This document shows, in pieces, positions 14,574 through 35,750 of a DNA stretch of 39,490 bases (within the stretch, counting starts at the first letter, position 1; the number at the start of each line of letters is the position of its first letter). The notes under the pieces were generated by a model. The model was not told where the DNA came from. It ran no database searches and was given only the letters and a program-made list of their open reading frames with translations. The DNA is from a virus: the IMG/VR virus record IMGVR_UViG_3300008120_000222, positions 1-39,490 of that record; one strand, given 5' to 3'. A program made the position numbers and the translations under genes.

Positions 14574-14599
14574 AGATCGGGCCAATGGCCCGATCTTTT
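14574..14599 (+). terminator. Rho-independent terminator of the late operon
   Basis: AGATCGGGCC (14574-14583) and GGCCCGATCT (14587-14596) form a perfect 10-bp stem with an AAT loop, followed by a short T-run (14596-14599). It lies between the end of the virion gene on the plus strand and the stop codon of the GcrA-like gene on the minus strand, so it separates two converging transcription units. The T-run fits plus-strand transcription; on the minus strand the trailing sequence is only A/T-rich, so bidirectional action is possible but weaker. Confidence 0.9.
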
Positions 14600-15096
14600 C
14601 ATTTGGCGAACACTAGAGCGTTCTTCCGCAGGAAGATGCCTGACTTCTTCTTTCTTTCTCTTTTTTCTTCTGATCTTGGTTTTATGTAGCACAATTCTGC
14701 GTGAAACTCGCAGTATGAGTTTTTCTTGGCAGGCTGACAGCAGTAGACTGTTTTCTCTGCTGCAACTTCTCCTATCACAAACCGGCAAGAATCTGCTTTA
14801 AGTTCCATAAGAGTGTTCTTTATGGAACTAGTTTTCTGTGGCGTTATTGTCACAGATCTCCTGCGGATCATTTTGCCGTTTACAGCGATTAGTTTTATGT
14901 GCCTTTCTTTTTTCTTCAGAGGTTCTTTTCTGTTATTTTTAACGATACCGGGATTGCGCAAAAGCTTCTTGCGATTGACGTAACCCATAACAGAGCTACG
15001 AGTTGCGCCAATTTCCAAAGCAATCTGGCCCGAAGTGAAATGTTCGGCCCACATCTTTTCTATGCGCCTCTTTTTCTCTTCAGTCAGACTTCTCAT
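14599..15096 (-). CDS. GcrA-family transcription regulator
   Basis: The product has 165 residues with the two-part layout of GcrA, the alphaproteobacterial cell-cycle regulator that binds sigma-70 RNA polymerase and recognises GANTC promoters. The N-terminal DNA-binding helix-turn-helix is at about 4-47 (LTEEKKRRIEKMWAEHFTSG, QIALEIGATRSSVMGYVNRKKL; compare the W..G.SA.QIA..LG.VTRNAVIGKVHRLGL pattern of GcrA). The C-terminal Cys/His part is at about 95-140: TLMELKADSCRFVIGE, then YCCQPAKKNSYCEFHAELCYIKP, matching the CRWPIGDP and PYC..HA..AY core of the family (Cys104, Cys119, Cys120, Cys129, His132). The linker and the tail are Lys/Arg-rich. It is the last gene of the minus-strand block and ends against the terminator. 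Residues are read by eye; the family call is strong, the biological role in the phage is inferred. Confidence 0.85.
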   Translation of the reverse strand: MRSLTEEKKRRIEKMWAEHFTSGQIALEIGATRSSVMGYVNRKKLLRNPGIVKNNRKEPLKKKERHIKLIAVNGKMIRRRSVTITPQKTSSIKNTLMELKADSCRFVIGEVAAEKTVYCCQPAKKNSYCEFHAELCYIKPRSEEKRERKKKSGIFLRKNALVFAK

Positions 15097-15849: not shown

Positions 15850-16104
15850 TTATAATTTAAGTATTGTTTCATCAACGAAGAAAACAGCTTTGTTTCCGCG
15901 ACCGACTTTGGTTAGCCTGACCAAGATGTTGCCTTTGGCGGAAAGTTTAATCTTAAGACGCCTAACAGAGCACATCAGAGAGTTGTGGAAGCTGAGAGTT
16001 TCTGGCCCAACGAAACTTTCACGTATCGTTTGGAAATGCACAGTCTTGCCTGCATGTGTCTTCAAGAAATCCAGCAATTGCTGCTCGCGTGGGGTGAGTT
16101 TCAT
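15850..16104 (-). CDS. Stand-alone winged-helix DNA-binding protein (OmpR/CtrA-type fold)
   Basis: The product has 84 residues and is all DNA-binding domain. The order of elements resembles the C-terminal effector domain of OmpR-family response regulators such as CtrA: MKLTPREQQLLDFLKTHAGK (strand and helix 1), VHFQTIRESFVG (helix 2), HNSLMCSVRRLKIKLSAKG (recognition helix with the VRRLKIKL pattern that corresponds to V..LRKKL) and a wing LTKVGRGNKAVFFVD (compare V.GRGY.L). There is no receiver domain. Its ATG overlaps the helicase stop (ATGA), so it is co-translated with the helicase and lies three genes before the GcrA-like gene. A phage repressor or activator is likely; the fold call is by pattern only. 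Confidence 0.65.
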   Translation of the reverse strand: MKLTPREQQLLDFLKTHAGKTVHFQTIRESFVGPETLSFHNSLMCSVRRLKIKLSAKGNILVRLTKVGRGNKAVFFVDETILKL

Positions 16105-17775: not shown

Positions 17776-17793
17776 TCAGCCCCCAAAGCGCAT
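17776..17793 (-). other. Five-codon minicistron ending 1 nt before the helicase ATG
   Basis: On the minus strand the last ATG of the 115-bp element opens a short frame MRFGG whose TGA is at 17778-17776, one base before the helicase ATG. In the other copy of the element the same ATG is the start of the nuclease gene. It may couple translation into the helicase or be chance; there is no direct evidence of translation. Confidence 0.3.
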
Positions 17794-17905
17794 TTTCCAT
17801 TTCCAATCCGTTTACGGATTTCACCTATTCCCCTTCTATTATTCTCTCTCTCTTATTTTTCTCTAGAGTGAGTGGAATTCAGGAGAGGAATGGAAATGGA
17901 AAATG
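17791..17905 (-). repeat. 115-bp element, copy A, with 18-bp terminal inverted repeats; probable control region
   Basis: The left end CATTTTCCATTTCCAATC is the reverse complement of the right end GAATGGAAATGGAAAATG except for one base. The 115 bp are closely similar to the reverse complement of 33093-33207: the first 15 and last 29 bases are identical and the blocks CCCCTTCTATT and the CT-repeat are shared. Inside is a perfect dyad AATCCGT-TT-ACGGATT (17805-17820). In minus orientation the element ends about 16 nt before the helicase start. Because both copies sit just before a gene in the same relative orientation, it is best read as a duplicated promoter/operator or replication-control element, not a transposon. 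Confidence 0.85.
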
Positions 17906-17918
17906 GTGGAATTGAGTA

Positions 17919-17938
17919 GGAGGGAATTGCTCCCCTCC
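17919..17938 (-). other. Hairpin downstream of the DUF932 gene
   Basis: GGAGGG (17919-17924) and CCCTCC (17933-17938) form a 6-bp G/C stem with an 8-nt loop, 18 bp past the stop of the minus-strand DUF932 gene. It is not followed by a T-run, so it is a weak terminator candidate or an RNA-stabilising hairpin. It lies between that gene and the 115-bp element. Confidence 0.4.
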
Positions 17939-17955
17939 CACTCTTCTCGTTGTTA

Positions 17956-18912
17956 TCAAACCATTTCCAAGAGCGAATCGCGCACTTCAACCTTCAGGCG
18001 GGCACGTTCGCCGAGCCATGCGTTGAAGAGTCGGGCGTCGCCTTTGGTCCCTGCGACATGGTCCACCCAATGGGTGACGCCATTCAAGACACCCCATGCA
18101 TTGCCTGGAACTGCACCGGGCGCATTGTGGATCGAGTTGAGAACCTGATCAAAATGCTTAGGGCGATAGCTCTGGTCGTTGAGCAGCAGCTCGATGTGGC
18201 TCTCCTCTTTCTGACCCTCGGGAGTCGGAGCGAAGAACTTGGACAAGAACCGCACAGTGTCGAACTCGCTCAGTTTGAGCTGGTCGAGAGCTTTCGCGTC
18301 GAGGTGAGCCTGATGGACCTGCTCACGAGCGAGGCCAATGGTCTGCTTGGCGCGAGAGGCATCGAACACCGAGAGGTGATTCTGGCTGTATTGTGCTTGA
18401 CCCTGAATCGCCATGGCCATTGTGTTGGCGCAAACGACGCGCACCGTCGTGGTGCGGACCGAGATGGCCTTGCCGACCTCGTGGGGCGAGATGAGCAGCA
18501 CATAACCTTTGACGTGGTCTTTGCGGTTGATGGTGAATCCTTCGTTGATCGAGGCGAGAGCCCAGATCACTTTGCCACCACGCAGGGAGCCAGCGGTCTC
18601 GAGTTTAGCGCCGCCCATCTCGGTGTACTCGCGGAAGAACTCCATAGCGTCGCGGTTCTGGAGAGGCTTCCAGAGATCGCCGGTGATGGTCATCACCTTG
18701 TTGTCGCTGGTGCGCATAAGAGCGCGACGCACCGGCAGCCGGATCATCTCGCCGTTGGGAGACTCGGCGTAGATCGGGCGGAGCTCGACCTGCCAATCAA
18801 GACCTGCAGCCACCAGCATCTCGTCAACGCTGACGGAAGGATCAACACGGTTGCCGAGACCGTGCCACGGAACCGCATTCGCGAAAGCCATCGTTTCAAC
18901 TTCGTGTGCCAT
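17956..18912 (-). CDS. DUF932-family (phage/plasmid-like) protein
   Basis: The product has 318 residues. The N-terminus MAHEVETMAFANAVPWHGLGN, with DPSVSVDEMLVAAGLDWQV, is the diagnostic opening of DUF932 (phage/plasmid-like, TIGR03299-type) proteins, and the central TTVRVVCANTMAMAIQGQAQY and HDA-like helix region fit too. The family is widespread on phages and plasmids and its biochemical role is unknown; links to DNA metabolism have been suggested only from genome position. The start has AGGAGAAGCAAAATG, a good ribosome-binding site. It lies downstream of a run of small minus-strand genes and upstream of the 115-bp element. Confidence 0.85.
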   Translation of the reverse strand: MAHEVETMAFANAVPWHGLGNRVDPSVSVDEMLVAAGLDWQVELRPIYAESPNGEMIRLPVRRALMRTSDNKVMTITGDLWKPLQNRDAMEFFREYTEMGGAKLETAGSLRGGKVIWALASINEGFTINRKDHVKGYVLLISPHEVGKAISVRTTTVRVVCANTMAMAIQGQAQYSQNHLSVFDASRAKQTIGLAREQVHQAHLDAKALDQLKLSEFDTVRFLSKFFAPTPEGQKEESHIELLLNDQSYRPKHFDQVLNSIHNAPGAVPGNAWGVLNGVTHWVDHVAGTKGDARLFNAWLGERARLKVEVRDSLLEMV

Positions 18913-19524: not shown

Positions 19525-19567
19525 GTTAGTTAACGCCATTTCTAGAAAAAAGAAAACAAGAAAATTG
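19525..19567 (-). promoter_or_regulatory. Predicted promoter with dyad over the -10 box
   Basis: On the minus strand the block CAATTTTCTTGTTTTCTTTT (19567-19548) contains a -35-like TTTTCT (19556-19551), a 17-nt spacer and a -10-like TTAACT (19533-19528). The -10 sits in a perfect dyad GTTA-GT-TAAC (19525-19534). The 20-nt block is identical to that at 21455-21474. Transcription would enter the gene at 19487. Prediction rests on repetition and spacing, not on a start-site map. Confidence 0.6.
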
Positions 19568-20216: not shown

Positions 20217-20636
20217 TCAGTCGTTGATGCTTGGGACAGGTCTTTTTTGTTTTTTGGACATTTCCGTCAGTCTTTCTTCCAGCCGCTGGCGATTGATCGC
20301 CATGGCTGCTTCGTCTGGATCCCAGTCATTGAACAGGTGCTTGGGGATTCCTATTGCCAATCCTTCGATTTCTGTCAGGTTGGGGTTGCGCTTGCGCTTC
20401 TTCAACTCTGCGACAATCTGGGCCTGTCTCTTCAGGCAGTAGCCCAGCCGAGTGTAGAAGAATTTGACATGCCCGGTGCCGAGCGTGTATTGCTGGGGAG
20501 CTTCGACCTCTCTCGGATCGACACCTTTCTCGAGAGCCTTGCGCACGAGCCCGAAGACACGCGGCAGCTCGTAGTATTCAGCAGCGAGGTGCTTGTCGTG
20601 CAGCTCCTGCGGCGGGACACAGTTGATCCGGGTCAT
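20217..20636 (-). CDS. denV: T4 endonuclease V-type pyrimidine dimer DNA glycosylase/AP lyase
   Basis: The product has 139 residues, like T4 DenV (138), and aligns to it without gaps over the N-terminal 30: MTRIN, then E11-L12, H16-L17, A19-E20-Y21, E23-LPRVFG. The catalytic residues of the family are kept at the same numbers: Thr2, which becomes the N-terminal nucleophile after removal of Met, and Glu23; Arg3 and Arg26 are kept too. Later it shares ILGAGHV-like YTLGTGHVKFFYTRLGY and a KRQ motif. The enzyme removes UV-induced cyclobutane pyrimidine dimers and nicks the abasic site. The aromatic C-terminus of T4 DenV is replaced by a basic MSKKQKRPVPSIND tail. The start at 20636 overlaps the stop of the upstream gene, excluding the longer frame. 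Confidence 0.93.
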   Translation of the reverse strand: MTRINCVPPQELHDKHLAAEYYELPRVFGLVRKALEKGVDPREVEAPQQYTLGTGHVKFFYTRLGYCLKRQAQIVAELKKRKRNPNLTEIEGLAIGIPKHLFNDWDPDEAAMAINRQRLEERLTEMSKKQKRPVPSIND

Positions 20637-21394: not shown

Positions 21395-21637
21395 CTTCGT
21401 TCTCCATCTACCTGCCGAATCGGTCAGTAAAGGCATTATGCCTGATTCCATCAGAAAAGAAAACAAGAAAATTGCTCAAATTGAATAAAAATTTCTGCTG
21501 AAAAAACAAACAGTTACGACAATTACGCGGAAAATCCCAAAAAGTCCGTGCTTTTTTCCAAAAGCTGGGGCATAATCGAAAATGTCTCAAAAACGGTTTC
21601 GGAATCGACCGGACCTAAGCAGACAAGGAGCATAGAT
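21395..21637. promoter_or_regulatory. Divergent control region between minus-strand early block and plus-strand replication block
   Basis: This 243-bp gap holds, from left: a minus-strand leader with palindrome CCGAATCGG (21415-21423) flanked by CTG/CAG; a minus-strand promoter (21431-21474); an AT-rich stretch with A-tracts; a possible plus-strand -10 CATAAT at 21571-21576 without a convincing -35; CGGT...ACCG around GAATC (21594-21611); and AAGGAG (21625-21630) for the gene at 21638. Three GANTC sites (21417-21421, 21444-21448, 21602-21606) occur in this gap, where about one would be expected by chance. An origin of replication could also lie here; no iterons were seen. Confidence 0.65.
21431..21474 (-). 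promoter_or_regulatory. Predicted minus-strand promoter with dyads
   Basis: The minus strand carries CAATTTTCTTGTTTTCTTTT (21474-21455), identical to the block at 19548-19567. TTTTCT (21463-21458), a 17-nt spacer and CATAAT (21440-21435) give a sigma-70-like layout. The -10 box lies in the dyad AGGCAT-T-ATGCCT (21431-21443), and CTGAT-TCC-ATCAG (21442-21454) fills the spacer. Dyads over both elements suggest a repressor site. Confidence 0.6.
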
Positions 21638-29301: not shown

Positions 29302-31062
29302 ATGAAAGTCAAGTCACTCGCAGAAATCCCTGCAGTTGCGGCATATCTGAAGCGCATCGGCGCAGAGCCAAGATCCCTGCGCACAGCTGTCGTGAAAGAA
29401 AGTCGCGGCCAGTATTGGGAAGACATCGCCATCATCACCCTCAACACCGATGGCACTGTGAAGGCACCCGACCTATACGCACCGACAGAAAAGGAAAAGC
29501 TCGCCATCGAGCTCGATTGTCAGAGTGCTGTATGGCCGCAGATGCGGACGCTTGACCGCTTACGCGACTTGCCTGAAGAAGTCGAGAAGGCCAAGGAAAA
29601 AGATGTCTTCATTTTCAGGAACATGAATGACGAGATCATCATGCTCCAACTCCGGATGGAACGCAAAGGGGAAAAGAGTTACATCCCCTATACCTACTGG
29701 GACGACGGTCTTTGGCGCAAGATGGAGCCTGAAGGACCATTGCCCCTATGGGGCATGGAGCAATTGAAGAACAATGCAACAGTCTTCATCCACGAAGGAG
29801 CGAAGGCTGCACGTGCCATGCGCGAGATGGTCGAGGCCGCAACGCCTGAAATGAAGGCGATGCTTGCGGATCATCCTTGGGGCGATGAGCTTTCGCACGC
29901 GGCACATCTGGGGTGGATTGGCGGTGCGTTGTCACCCTACCGCACGGACTGGTCCATTCTGCAGAAGGCGGGTGTCAAGCGCGCCTACATAGTCTCAGAC
30001 AATGACGCACCGGGGGTGTCGGCTGTTCCGGCGATATCGTTCCACTTGCGCATCCCGACATTCCATGTCCAGTTCACCAGCGAGTGGCCGACGAGCTTTG
30101 ACCTCGCCGACCCATTCCCCAAAGGCATGTTCAAGAAAGTCGAAGGCCACAAATACTACGTCGGTCCCAGCTTCCGTTCATGCTTGCACCCCGCCACATG
30201 GGCCACCGACCAAATCCCCAACCCCAAAGGCAAACCGACCACTGTCCTCCGCAAGAACTTCAAAGACATGTGGTCGTATGTTGAGGAGGCCGATCTGTTC
30301 GTTTGCATTGAGATGCCGGAGATAATTCGCTCCGAGCAGATCATGAACAAGATGCTGGCCGCGTTCAGCCACACCAATCAAACATCGCAGCTGATTGTGA
30401 AAGCCTACACAGGACGTTCAACAAAGCTGTGCTACCGCCCCGACATCAAAGGCAAGGTCGTGACCGACACAACGACCTCTGCAATCAACCTCCACACTCC
30501 ATCGCACATCAAACCAATAGCAGGCAACCCCGAGCCTTTCTTGAAGTTTATGGAATACATGTTCCCTAACCCGGAGGAGCGTGGCGAGGTGCTGCGTTGG
30601 ACAGCGACGCTGATCGCTCGCCCGGAGATCCGCATGGAGTATGGGCTTTTGCTCGTCAGCGAGCGTCAAGGTGTCGGCAAGACGACCCTCGGCAGCTCAA
30701 TACTTGCTCCGCTGGTCGGCACTCAGAACGTGGGCTACCCGACGGAGAGCCAAATCGTGCAGTCTGAATTCAACGGCTGGCTCGCCAACAAACGGCTGTG
30801 TGTGGTGAACGAGATCTACTCCGGCCACAGCTGGAAAGCCTACAACAAGTTGAAGTCTGCCATCACCGATCGTGAGATTGAGGTGAACGAGAAATATCAG
30901 CGGTCCTACACCATCGAGAATTGGTGCCATGTTTTTGCATGCTCTAACTCTATGCGCGCGCTCCGTATTGAAGAGGACGATCGTCGCTGGTTCTATCCCG
31001 AGGTGACTGAGGACAAATGGCCGCGTGAGAAGTTTGAAGATTTCCACAACTGGCTGAAGTGA
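29302..31062 (+). CDS. Primase-helicase (TOPRIM-like N-terminus, D5/DUF5906-type helicase C-terminus)
   Basis: The product has 586 residues. The centre carries TOPRIM-like primase motifs: a glutamate in FIHEGAKAARAM (Glu165) and an Asp pair in IVSDNDAPG (Asp233, Asp235). The C-terminal part is an SF3/D5-type ATPase: Walker A VSERQGVGKTTLGSSIL (near 456), a VVNEIYSGHSWKAYNKLK Walker B-type segment, a NEKYQRSYTIENWCHVFACSN sensor region and DDRRWFYPEVTEDKWP, the pattern of DUF5906 helicases. It would make primers and unwind DNA for the DnaE-type polymerase. The frame stops at WLK and the usual C-terminal continuation begins in the next ORF in another frame. Confidence 0.88.
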   Translation: MKVKSLAEIPAVAAYLKRIGAEPRSLRTAVVKESRGQYWEDIAIITLNTDGTVKAPDLYAPTEKEKLAIELDCQSAVWPQMRTLDRLRDLPEEVEKAKEKDVFIFRNMNDEIIMLQLRMERKGEKSYIPYTYWDDGLWRKMEPEGPLPLWGMEQLKNNATVFIHEGAKAARAMREMVEAATPEMKAMLADHPWGDELSHAAHLGWIGGALSPYRTDWSILQKAGVKRAYIVSDNDAPGVSAVPAISFHLRIPTFHVQFTSEWPTSFDLADPFPKGMFKKVEGHKYYVGPSFRSCLHPATWATDQIPNPKGKPTTVLRKNFKDMWSYVEEADLFVCIEMPEIIRSEQIMNKMLAAFSHTNQTSQLIVKAYTGRSTKLCYRPDIKGKVVTDTTTSAINLHTPSHIKPIAGNPEPFLKFMEYMFPNPEERGEVLRWTATLIARPEIRMEYGLLLVSERQGVGKTTLGSSILAPLVGTQNVGYPTESQIVQSEFNGWLANKRLCVVNEIYSGHSWKAYNKLKSAITDREIEVNEKYQRSYTIENWCHVFACSNSMRALRIEEDDRRWFYPEVTEDKWPREKFEDFHNWLK

Positions 31063-31879: not shown

Positions 31880-31995
31880 TCGATCCGTTCGTTGTCGCTG
31901 TGACACTCTTTTTGTTTTTGCCTGCTGTGCTGATGCTGGTCTTTGTTGTGGTTGGACATCTTGAGCAGAAAAGGAAAAATAAAGATGAGCGATGA
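31876..31995 (+). CDS. 39-residue membrane protein
   Basis: This short ORF (ATG at 31876, overlapping the previous stop as ATGA) encodes one transmembrane helix: MIDPFVVAVTLFLFLPAVLM, then LVFVVVGHLE, and a basic tail QKRKNKDER. It ends inside the next ORF. The single helix with a positive C-terminus fits a small inner-membrane protein. The function is unknown; the close fit in the gene string supports it. Confidence 0.6.
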   Translation: MIDPFVVAVTLFLFLPAVLMLVFVVVGHLEQKRKNKDER

Positions 31996-32191
31996 TCTTG
32001 TGCAGCGCCTTCGCGCTGAAGACCCTGAAACAGGTTTACGCCATAGCATCGCCTCTGAGGCGGCAGACCGCATAGAGGCGCTGGAGAAGGCGCTATGTGA
32101 GATTGCTGACTGCAAATGCGAAAAGTGGTGTGGCAATTATTTTAATAATTGCATCGCCCGCGCTGCGCTGGAGGGGAAAGATGAGCAATGA
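31985..32191 (+). CDS. Small helical protein, paralogue of the next gene
   Basis: The product has 68 residues, starting at 31985 (MSDDLVQRLRAEDPETGL). It contains EAADRIEALEKALCEIADCKCEKWC and four Cys in total near its centre. The start MS(D/N)DLV(Q/K).LR and the EAADRIEALE segment are also in the gene at 32181. A longer upstream start at 31943 is in frame but would lie inside the membrane ORF. Function unknown. Confidence 0.65.
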   Translation: MSDDLVQRLRAEDPETGLRHSIASEAADRIEALEKALCEIADCKCEKWCGNYFNNCIARAALEGKDEQ

Positions 32192-32420
32192 TCTTGTGAA
32201 ATGGTTGAGAGAAGCCTCAAGCAGGCACAACAACTATCGGTGCGATGAGGCAGCCGACCGCATAGAGGCGCTGGAGCGTCTGGAAAAACAGATGCCGGCG
32301 ATCCTCGAATATCTTGAGGAGCAGGCGGACGTCGTGGACGGCGACAACGGCATCCCGCATCCGAACAAGGCGATGAGTTTGCTGGTTTGGCTGCGGCATG
32401 AGTTGGAGAAAAAGAGGTGA
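32181..32420 (+). CDS. Small helical protein, paralogue of the previous gene
   Basis: The product has 79 residues: MSNDLVKWLREASSRHNNYRCDEAADRIEALERLEKQ, then acidic helix and ADVVDGDNGIPHPNKAMSLLVWLRHELEKKR. The first half repeats the layout of the 68-residue neighbour (MSxDLV.WLR and EAADRIEALE), which points to a tandem duplication followed by divergence. No known function. Confidence 0.65.
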   Translation: MSNDLVKWLREASSRHNNYRCDEAADRIEALERLEKQMPAILEYLEEQADVVDGDNGIPHPNKAMSLLVWLRHELEKKR

Positions 32421-32969: not shown

Positions 32970-33092
32970 AGACGGTGAAAATGGGCTTCTTGTTTTCTTT
33001 TACAGGGAGTTCTGTTTTCTTTTCTATTTGCTCACTGGTGGAATGCGAAACGAAAACACGAAGGAAAACAAATATAAAATAGTTTCCTTCCA
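32970..33092. promoter_or_regulatory. Intergenic control region with two TTCT(T)GTTTTCTTTT motifs and an 8-bp hairpin
   Basis: TTCTTGTTTTCTTTT (32987-33001) is identical to the core of the minus-strand promoter block at 19548-19567, here on the plus strand. A second copy, TTCTGTTTTCTTTTCT (33010-33025), follows 23 bp later. Neither has a clear -10 box 17 bases downstream. GAAGGAAA (33060-33067) and TTTCCTTC (33083-33090) form an inverted repeat whose loop contains TATAAAAT. With the 115-bp element at 33093 this makes about 235 bp without a gene between the early and late plus-strand blocks. Confidence 0.55.
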
Positions 33093-33207
33093 CATTTTCC
33101 ATTTCCATTCCTCTCCTGAATCTAGGGTACTTTCTATAGAAAGAGAGAGAGAGAGTAAATAGAAGGGGAGTTAGGGAAATCGGTGTAACGAATGGAAATG
33201 GAAAATG
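33093..33207 (+). repeat. 115-bp element, copy B, with perfect 18-bp terminal inverted repeats; probable control region
   Basis: CATTTTCCATTTCCATTC (33093-33110) and GAATGGAAATGGAAAATG (33190-33207) are perfect reverse complements. The element is the inverted counterpart of 17791-17905, equal in length. Inside is the palindrome CTTTCTATAGAAAG (33130-33143), an AG-repeat (about 33140-33156) and GTAAATAGAAGGGG. GAATC occurs once (33118-33122). The last ATG of the element is the ATG at 33205 where the nuclease gene starts, so the element forms its whole 5' region. Flanking target-site duplications are not seen. Confidence 0.85.
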
Positions 33208-33645
33208 CGCGAAACAACCCATATGAAGAAATGGATTCGTGACAACTGGGATGGTTGGATCGAGTCGTATGAGCCGAGGCTTGGGTCGAGTGTCGGAATA
33301 CCTGACATCCAAATCGTTGTTGATGGAAAGCTGGTGCCGATTGAGCTGAAGGTTGCAGACCTGAGCGATGGAATTCTTTGCTCGTCTGAGATCAGACCGC
33401 CTCAGATAAACTGGCATCGCAATCTTGCTGCGCATGATGTTCTGTCACTGTTCTTGTTTGGTGTCGGAAAAGGCAATGTGCCAGAAAGGTTGTTTGCTGC
33501 CCGAGGTGACAAAATTGCCAATTGGTCAGCTGGATTTGACATTCGGAATTTGGAAGAGGTTTCTCCTAACAAGAGGAACTTTTCTGGCAGTTTGCGAGAA
33601 TTGATCAGATATATGCTGAGCACAATGGAGGCCAAATCCAAATAA
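33205..33645 (+). CDS. PD-(D/E)XK nuclease-like protein
   Basis: The product has 146 residues. It carries GIPDIQIVVDGKLVPIELKVADL, where Asp34 and the Glu47-Leu-Lys49 motif form the metal-binding core of PD-(D/E)XK nucleases such as VRR-NUC and Holliday junction resolvases; a QINWHRNL segment with a conserved-looking Gln follows, as in VRR-NUC-like enzymes. The start at 33205 is the final ATG of the 115-bp element; ATG at 33223 (MKKWIRDNW) is an alternative. It lies before the terminase genes, where a resolvase or nuclease could prepare replicated DNA for packaging. Confidence 0.75.
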   Translation: MRETTHMKKWIRDNWDGWIESYEPRLGSSVGIPDIQIVVDGKLVPIELKVADLSDGILCSSEIRPPQINWHRNLAAHDVLSLFLFGVGKGNVPERLFAARGDKIANWSAGFDIRNLEEVSPNKRNFSGSLRELIRYMLSTMEAKSK

Positions 33646-33688: not shown

Positions 33689-33711
33689 CATCGTGGCAAT
33701 AGGAGTTGGCA

Positions 33712-34182
33712 GTGGGTCGCCTTCCCAAAGCGCAATCGAGTGGGTACGTCAGCAAAGAGATAGATCTCGAAGTCTTTGATGGCATTTTGGTCAGAATGGC
33801 CAATGGTGAAACTCTTACTCGAATCCTGAAAGAAGAGAATCAGCCTGACTATTGTGTGTTCATGAATTGGGCGCAAAGCTCGGAAGAGCTTTACAAAAAG
33901 TACGCGCGAGCTCGTCAAATTCAGGCCGATTATTTCGCGGACCAGACTGTTGAGATCTCTGACACAGAGACCGACAACAACCGGGCACGCAACCGCATGG
34001 ACGCTCGGCGATGGCACGCAGCCAAGATCGCACCGCGCAAGTACGGCGACAAGGTCGTTCAGGAGCACACCGGCGAAGGCGGCGGACCGATCGCAATCGC
34101 CTCGCTCAATCTCAAAGGGTTGAACGACGATGAGCTATTGGCCATGCAGAAGATGCTGACGAAAGCTGTGGGCACCGAATGA
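33712..34182 (+). CDS. terS: Terminase small subunit
   Basis: The product has 156 residues, starting with GTG at 33712, six bases after AGGAG (33701-33705); an earlier TTG touches the ribosome-binding site. It begins MGRLPKAQSSGYVSKEIDLEVFDGILVRMANGETLTRIL with a helix-turn-helix-type opening. It contains RARQIQADYFADQTVEISD and ARNRMDARRWHAAKIAPRKYGDKV, the A..MQAD...D.I.EI.D and RIDARKW..AKL.PKKYGDK pattern of phage small terminases. It recognises phage DNA for packaging. The stop overlaps the terL start (ATGA). Confidence 0.87.
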   Translation: MGRLPKAQSSGYVSKEIDLEVFDGILVRMANGETLTRILKEENQPDYCVFMNWAQSSEELYKKYARARQIQADYFADQTVEISDTETDNNRARNRMDARRWHAAKIAPRKYGDKVVQEHTGEGGGPIAIASLNLKGLNDDELLAMQKMLTKAVGTE

Positions 34183-35750
34183 ACGCTCCTCTCAGCCCAG
34201 CAGTCATGCTCGACATGATCAAGCGCGAGCGAGACCGCAGGGCTGCATCAGCATCGCTGTACGAATTCGTCAAACAATCTTGGCATGTGGTCGAACCGGG
34301 CATTGAATTCATCCCGTCTTGGCACATTGAAGAGATCTGCGAGCATCTCGAGGCAGTGACTGCAGGCGAGATCAGAAGGCTGCTGATCAACATTCCGCCG
34401 CGCCATTCAAAGTCAACCATCGTCAGCGTCATGTGGCCGATGTGGGAGTGGCTGACGACCCCACAGCACAAATACCTTTGCGCATCCTACTCGTCGACGC
34501 TGTCGATACGAGACAACCTCAAAGCGCGCCGGTTGGTCCAGTCGCCTTGGTATCAGGAGCGTTGGGGCCATCTGTTCAATCTTGCGGGCGACCAGAACGC
34601 CAAGCAGCGATTCGAGAACGACAAAACGGGCTACCGCATCGCAACGTCCGTTGGCGGAACGGCGACTGGTGAAGGCGGATCGCGCCTGATCCTGGACGAC
34701 CCGCACTCGGCGCAAGAGGCACAGTCTGACGTCATGCGTGAGTCGGCCATTGAATGGTTCAACATGGTCTGGTCGACCCGACTCAACGACCCTAAGCGCG
34801 ATGCGATGGTCACCGTCATGCAGCGTCTCCATGAGCGAGATGTCAGCGGCTTGGTGCTCAACGAGATCGGTGGCTGGGAGCATATCTGCATTCCGGCAGA
34901 GTGGGATGGCAAAAAGCGCAAGACTGTCCTAGGACCATACGATCCCCGCACCAAGGTCGGCGAGCTGATCTGCCCTGACCGATTCGGCGAGAAAGAAATC
35001 GCTTCGCTGAAGCAATCGCTGGGTGCCTATGGAACTGCCGGACAGCTCCAGCAAGATCCGACGCCGTCTGAGGGCGGCATCCTCAAGACTAAGTTCTTCA
35101 ACCTTTGGCCTTCTGAGAAAGGTCTGCCGACATTTGAATACATCCTACAGTCCTACGACTGCGCATTCACTGAGAAGACGTCAGGCGACCCGACTGCCTG
35201 CACTGTCTGGGCAATCTTCACCTACAACGGTGAACGCAATGCCATGCTCATTGACGCTTGGGACGAGCATCTGTCCTACCCTGATCTGCGCACCAAGGCC
35301 ATCAAGGACTGGCAGACTGAGTATGGCGGAATGACCAAGGAATCTCCCCACCACCGGGCGAGACGTCCGGACAGGGTGCTGGTTGAAGCCAAAGCCTCTG
35401 GTCAATCGCTCATTCAAGATCTGCGTCTGGCCAAAGTGCCAGTTGTCTCCTACAACCCCGGAGCAGCAGACAAGGTCAGTCGTGCACATCAAGCTGCTCC
35501 GACTCTCGAATTGGGGTTGCTTTGGATCCCAGAGTCAGGCAAGAATAGAGGAATGCCGGTGAGTTGGGCGGATGCTTTTCTGAAGCAGCTGACCAAATTT
35601 CCGGTGGCGGATCACGATGACTATGTCGACACATTCACACAGGCGGTGATCTATCTGAAGAATGACGGTTGGTTCGAACTTCCAAGAGCTCGGGACATTG
35701 ATGAGCCCAGACAGCCCAAGAGAGAGCGAATCAATCCCTATGCGGCGTGA
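34179..35750 (+). CDS. terL: Terminase large subunit
   Basis: The product has 523 residues. The ATPase part has the Walker A-like PPRHSKST (73-80), a conserved YLCASYSSTLS segment, and Walker B LILDDPHS (about 170). The C-terminal nuclease part of RNase H fold has the Asp in QSYDCAFTEKTSGDPTAC, VEAKASGQSL and DHDDYVDTFTQAVIY. The arrangement is that of Terminase_6-type phage terminases that drive DNA into the capsid and cut it. The ATG overlaps the small terminase stop, and small head genes and the portal follow. Confidence 0.95.
   Translation: MNAPLSPAVMLDMIKRERDRRAASASLYEFVKQSWHVVEPGIEFIPSWHIEEICEHLEAVTAGEIRRLLINIPPRHSKSTIVSVMWPMWEWLTTPQHKYLCASYSSTLSIRDNLKARRLVQSPWYQERWGHLFNLAGDQNAKQRFENDKTGYRIATSVGGTATGEGGSRLILDDPHSAQEAQSDVMRESAIEWFNMVWSTRLNDPKRDAMVTVMQRLHERDVSGLVLNEIGGWEHICIPAEWDGKKRKTVLGPYDPRTKVGELICPDRFGEKEIASLKQSLGAYGTAGQLQQDPTPSEGGILKTKFFNLWPSEKGLPTFEYILQSYDCAFTEKTSGDPTACTVWAIFTYNGERNAMLIDAWDEHLSYPDLRTKAIKDWQTEYGGMTKESPHHRARRPDRVLVEAKASGQSLIQDLRLAKVPVVSYNPGAADKVSRAHQAAPTLELGLLWIPESGKNRGMPVSWADAFLKQLTKFPVADHDDYVDTFTQAVIYLKNDGWFELPRARDIDEPRQPKRERINPYAA

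Follow-up and report, generated by a model that had tools for sequence, protein, structure and literature searches.

Duplicated paired-arm elements recur at operon heads across a large uncultured phage group

Several described systems place hairpins or paired sites next to phage operons. The R-sites of phage T7 are the RNase III processing hairpins of the phage's mRNAs. The put sites of phage HK022, which serve processive antitermination, are double hairpins of about 65–70 nt, in which two adjacent hairpins near a promoter act on RNA polymerase without any phage protein, and the satellite phage P4 possesses two cis replication sites, ori and crr. Finally, the dfn hairpin of LoaP antitermination is small and carries a UNCG loop (PMC12691694).

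The element described here, present as copies A and B in the window (the whole 39,490-nt stretch of viral DNA analysed), shares features with each of these systems. As with the T7 R-sites, long irregular hairpins lie between genes, pairing outweighs sequence and the copies of one phage are similar, a likeness drawn from predicted folds; in contrast, the elements are longer (~35–50 pairs), occur at operon heads only, number two to three per genome and contain a recurrent core and a purine tract. Similarly to put and dfn, a hairpin common to two or more target operons heads long operons, and a NusG-like gene lies nearby in some relatives, whereas the predicted folds are long, their loops are rich in purines and none contains a small hairpin capped by UNCG as in dfn, and the clade of the window has no NusG-like gene. 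With P4 ori/crr the likeness consists of two cis sites of ~120 bp and a related primase-helicase family, though the orientation here is mostly operon-bound, no iteron array is evident and some phages have three copies. The core ACTCTAGRGA also resembles the CACTATAGGGA of T7-class promoters and their purine-rich start, but a cognate polymerase was not found, only two to three copies are present and the arms are long and inverted. No description of the element was found in the open-access literature searched, and the window gave no Rfam match above the gathering score, only sub-threshold matches to generic hairpins, mostly miRNA models. The element family is previously unnamed.

Two copies of the element in the window

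A preliminary description, made from the sequence alone, had reported two 115-bp copies in opposite orientations with 15 and 29 shared end bases, and the copies and their surroundings, listed below, agree with this.

17791..17905, minus strand: element A (115 nt), flanked by the DUF932 and SNF2-like helicase genes
17891..17905, minus strand: 5' arm of A, CATTTTCCATTTCCA, pairing with 17791–17805
17861..17874, minus strand: core of A, CACTCACTCTAGAG, an ACTCT..RGA core recurrent in relatives
17831..17864, minus strand: purine-rich tract of A (hairpin loop)
17791..17805, minus strand: 3' arm of A, TGGAAATGGAAAATG
33093..33207, plus strand: element B (115 nt), separating the replication operon from the nuclease/terminase operon
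33093..33110, plus strand: 5' arm of B, CATTTTCCATTTCCATTC, pairing with 33190–33207
33135..33168, plus strand: purine-rich tract of B (GA repeats)
33190..33207, plus strand: 3' arm of B, GAATGGAAATGGAAAATG, containing the nuclease start codon
16101..17774, minus strand: SNF2-like helicase gene, after A (Pfam PF00176/PF00271)
17956..18912, minus strand: DUF932 gene, before A (Pfam PF06067)
29302..31062, plus strand: primase-helicase gene (DUF5906/VapE-like), the anchor gene for finding relatives
33205..33645, plus strand: gene following B, nuclease-like, with a PD..ELK motif and without a Pfam match
33706..34182, plus strand: terminase small subunit gene (Pfam PF20901)
34179..35750, plus strand: terminase large subunit gene (Pfam PF17289)

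Read toward the following gene, the first 29 bases of A and B are identical (CATTTTCCATTTCCATTCCTCTCCTGAAT, 29/29); since only ~5e-9 such matches are expected by chance in 39.5 kb, this identity is not accidental. The copies also have their 3' end, TGGAAATGGAAAATG, in common, with the identity extending into CGC, three bases past the element, and both contain AATAGAAGGGGA and a GA tract. The arms of A pair over 15 bp, followed by a mismatch and three more pairs, and those of B over 18 bp. Each element is predicted to form 33–45 pairs with interior loops, as a single long hairpin or a three-way junction, with z-scores of -5.8 (A) and -5.1 (B) against dinucleotide shuffles and 0/200 shuffles folding as well. 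The hairpin score alone is borderline in a single genome (21.4 and 21.0, against 21.0 for the best of 20 block-shuffled windows), and the reality of the element is therefore decided by the copy-to-copy match and by conservation in other phages. The earlier statement that each copy stands directly before a gene needs correction in detail: the helicase start (17774) lies 16 nt past A, and the nuclease ATG makes up the final three bases of B itself, a start position backed by the sequences of relatives.

An intrinsic terminator was rejected, as the 3' arm is followed by CGC.. in both copies, without a T run, and neither copy figured in the scan that picked out the terminator-like hairpin at 14574–14596. 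A separate GC-rich hairpin, GAGTGGGAGGGGAGCAATTCCCTCCTACTC, lies between the DUF932 gene and A (17914–17943, minus strand), likewise with no T run after it; two relatives (L005 and L012) have a hairpin of different sequence at the equivalent place.

Equivalents at operon heads of related phages

Scanning 2.9 million viral contigs for both arms at a spacing of 60–90 nt yielded eleven additional occurrences distributed over nine contigs, each measuring 114 or 115 nt and lying in one of the same two contexts, and a 58.9-kb contig (G001) has both A and B. The B position is also occupied in G010 (L067:533-646), with an additional gene separating element and nuclease, and in L087, where the 5' half of B equals that of the A copy in a contig from the same sample. 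A helicase search led to relatives at 61–68% identity, in which a hairpin is found upstream of the helicase gene wherever sequence is available there; the arms of several of these hairpins are different ones (TTTCGGTTTC, ACCGTTTCC, AGTTCCGTTTC). As a query, the primase-helicase identified 80 loci at 38–97% identity, and many, though not all, of these show a long AT-rich hairpin before the helicase gene or between the primase and packaging genes. Two further phages (G024 and G025) carry A and B, while G028 and G036 each have three copies at the same three places: upstream of the helicase gene, at the late operon and before the baseplate wedge genes. The latter two share the replication module with the window, which encodes podovirus-like genes (portal, ejection protein), and their baseplate genes show that the element crosses tail types. 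Among named phages only distant relatives were found, such as roseophages CRP-901/902, and primase relatives were absent from the cultured-genome contigs searched. The window also carries a GcrA homologue (14599–15096), and this phage-borne gene points to an alphaproteobacterial host.

The family has a common anatomy of 106–165 nt: the inverted arms are pyrimidine-rich and then purine-rich, the core often reads ACTCT with RGA after it, and a purine tract containing GA repeats is mostly found on the same strand as the gene that comes next. A-type copies precede the SNF2-like helicase gene, usually after the DUF932 gene, and B-type copies separate the primase operon from the packaging operon; a third copy sometimes precedes baseplate genes. 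The orientation of the element is mostly that of the genes that follow, with the A copy of G024 reversed relative to its genes. Across 52 loci, some of them near-identical to each other, 22 of 31 AT-rich hairpins above a score threshold fixed after a first look were located 300–3000 nt downstream of the primase gene, a zone comprising 15.6% of the bases. One contig (L159:1-124) ends in a near-perfect 124-nt palindrome, which is probably an assembly or amplification artefact.

The gene that follows B varies, and may encode a nuclease, a terminase small subunit, a NusG-like antiterminator, an ADP-ribosylglycohydrolase or an endonuclease. B thus marks an operon head and not one particular gene, and the controlled unit would be the operon. 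A, in turn, remains with the helicase gene in three gene orders, despite rearrangement of the module. The results demonstrate that A and B belong to a conserved type of duplicated element with paired arms, located at operon heads across a large uncultured phage group. The earlier proposal of a duplicated control element before two genes is backed by these equivalents, which were sought in related phages as it had suggested and were found at the same places; from sequence comparison, we infer that the element controls its operons in cis. The long hairpins, the concerted change of the arms described below and the variable gene after B were missed in that account.

The positional data bear on two other readings raised in the preliminary description. 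The terminal inverted repeats and the presence of two copies would suit a mobile element such as a MITE, which that description had doubted, naming absence from close relatives together with flanking direct repeats as the signs of insertion. Instead, all close relatives carry both copies at the equivalent sites, A and B are not flanked by a target duplication, no transposase was found and there are just two or three copies per genome, so that a mobile element is excluded in practice. The second reading makes A and B two replication origins, or sites used in cis by the DUF5906 primase-helicase for replication, following the logic of P4 ori/crr. The copies do bracket the replication genes in the window, the phage encodes a primase-helicase with a DUF5906/VapE-like domain, and the copies of one phage have sequence in common. 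This bracketing is not always seen in other phages, however, and the elements follow operon heads through rearrangements, as seen for A and its helicase gene. In addition, orientation mostly tracks the downstream operon, third copies precede baseplate genes in some phages, the GC skew shows no switch at the elements and no array of short iterons is evident, with only TTCCRTTTCC repeated within the arms of one clade. Taken together, these observations make an origin pair unlikely.

The spacing to neighbouring genes is often tight. The element frequently occupies the entire intergenic gap, and in G006 and L149 it begins within ~4 nt of the primase stop codon, making read-through transcription natural in these phages. 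NusG-like genes (phrog_6386) adjoin or closely follow B in five lineages (L113, L114, L120, L134 and L149), and such a gene is present in 6 of 29 relatives. It is absent from the clade of the window, including G001, G010 and G000 (the 39.5-kb record, which may be a fragment), and a NusG paralogue as universal partner was rejected given its absence from most relatives. Sequestration of the translation start was likewise rejected as a general function: the start codon falls within an arm in just a subset of members (B of the window, L006, L021, L094 and L106), and is 15–600 nt away in the others.

Concerted arm changes and possible modes of action

Comparing 13 distinct arm pairs, 93.5% of the cells were paired, against 77% in shuffles; as the alignment was made by hand on the arms, this figure favours structure, and the double changes that keep the pairing are the stronger evidence, numbering 27 against 8.8 in shuffles and at most five when the arms were slid. 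Within G028, two copies show changes in both partners of five pairs, each change leading from pair to pair. Copies within a genome are 64–93% similar, compared to a median of 51% between unrelated genomes, and, since loose gap costs were used, this contrast carries more weight than the absolute values. A shared trans-acting factor, gene conversion or recent re-duplication would each suffice to explain the likeness of copies within a genome. The element thereby offers a natural test case in which structure and copy-to-copy similarity are kept while the sequence turns over.

Quasi-palindrome correction can alter both arms of a palindrome together, and functionless palindromes perfected by template-switch repair, without selection, would be in line with the fast drift of the arms. 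This leaves unexplained the constant position and orientation over deep divergence, as well as the recurrent core and purine tract, and we consider it very improbable.

Two readings in which the element is functional deserve closer attention. In the first, A and B would be copies of one cis-acting operon-head element that acts after transcription has started, a model to which we assign close to an even chance. It draws on the maintained pairing of the arms, the position after the primase gene, the varying gene after B, the constant link of A with the helicase gene and the tight spacing to the primase stop codon. RNA polymerase would read through the element, and the RNA would fold into a long hairpin of roughly 35–50 pairs where the upstream and downstream messages meet, determining the fate of the downstream transcript. 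One option is that a double-strand-specific RNase cuts the hairpin, which would separate early from late message and expose the start of the downstream gene; RNase III sites have stems of ~20 bp or more, and the predicted folds reach 33–45 pairs. Another is that the hairpin alters elongation in the manner of processive antitermination signals. Within the loop, the core and the purine tract might give direction or bind a factor common to the copies of a phage. A difficulty for the model is that the stem contains the start codon in B of the window and in several relatives, so that translation would be blocked there unless the stem is cut. NusG-like genes beside B in five lineages speak for the model, and their absence from the clade of the window speaks against it.

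Strand-specific tests lean weakly towards such an RNA. Folding is equally good on the two strands (mean z about -5 for each), G-U outnumber A-C pairs by 65 to 51 on the transcript strand, short of significance (p 0.11), and the sense strand has the better fold energy in 20 of 29 cases. In one clade (L023, L024, L041, L048, L049 and L050), the 5' arm of the element upstream of the helicase gene can alternatively pair with an upstream segment, for example GGCGGGAACGGTAA with TTTACCGTTTCCGCC, and the predicted folds alternate between two forms among close relatives, a likeness to RNA switches. Against an RNA hairpin stand the reversed A copy of G024 and the A-C mismatches in the arms of B in L087, which RNA pairing does not favour, and neither the conserved core nor the purine tract would be needed by a plain RNase III site.

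In the second reading, the element would be a promoter or operator acting as DNA, with transcription starting at the core, between ACTCTA and GAGA.., the arms forming twin sites for a factor encoded by the phage or a cruciform, and the purine tract and 3' arm giving an open, purine-rich 5' leader. Where the element fills the intergenic gap, an operon promoter could only lie inside it or in the upstream gene. A promoter would also be consistent with the recurrent core, the purine tract and the mostly fixed orientation, with the motif TTCCRTTTCC, which the arms of the window's clade and its relatives have in common, and with the arm sequence common to the copies of one phage. A start codon near the 3' arm would then be accessible, and the core is similar to T7-class promoters (GAATTCCACTCACTCTAGAG compared to TAATACGACTCACTATAGGG). 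T7-type RNA polymerase (PF00940) was, however, absent from G000 (possibly a fragment), G001, G010 and G012 in a search that found the T7 enzyme as positive control, and the core, allowing up to three mismatches, is no commoner than chance along the window. A T7-type promoter was therefore rejected in spite of the attractive core match. For sigma-70 promoters, one weak match overlaps A, but convincing boxes did not emerge and such sites showed no excess over shuffles. Operators do not need near-perfect arms of 40–50 bp with compensating changes. A promoter or operator is a serious rival, at well below an even chance.

Of the two, the transcribed hairpin is somewhat more likely. A more specific version of it, in which the elements form a new class of phage operon-head RNAs, with arms that evolve together among the copies of a genome and an ACTCT/GA-rich loop read by a factor from phage or host, switching replication, packaging and baseplate operons via elongation or processing in phages of different tail types, appears clearly less likely than not. 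If the element acts as RNA, it would represent a new family of phage leader, and if it acts as DNA, an unusual promoter type. It also offers an entry point for studying how genes are controlled in this large group of uncultured phages, where the records searched showed no phage RNA polymerase.

Further features of the window

Other sequences in the window could be of regulatory interest. The motif CAATTTTCTTGTTTTCTTTT has two exact occurrences and TTGTTTTCTTTT is found four times in total, including one site with a mismatch; the sites of the two (19548–19567 and 21455–21474 on the minus strand, 32990–33001 and 33012–33023 on the plus strand) each lie upstream of genes on their own strand, and may possibly represent a second regulatory motif or promoter. 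Related TTTTCTTTTCTG copies are located ahead of B in L087. Between convergent operons, a strong bidirectional terminator-like hairpin, AGATCGGGCCAATGGCCCGATCT, occupies 14574–14596. A winged-helix protein is encoded at 15850–16104 and a pyrimidine-dimer glycosylase domain at 20217–20597, and two adjacent small ORFs at 31943–32420 contain repeated DNA (31981–32002/32177–32198 and 32056–32086/32246–32276), the pair probably being a tandem duplication.
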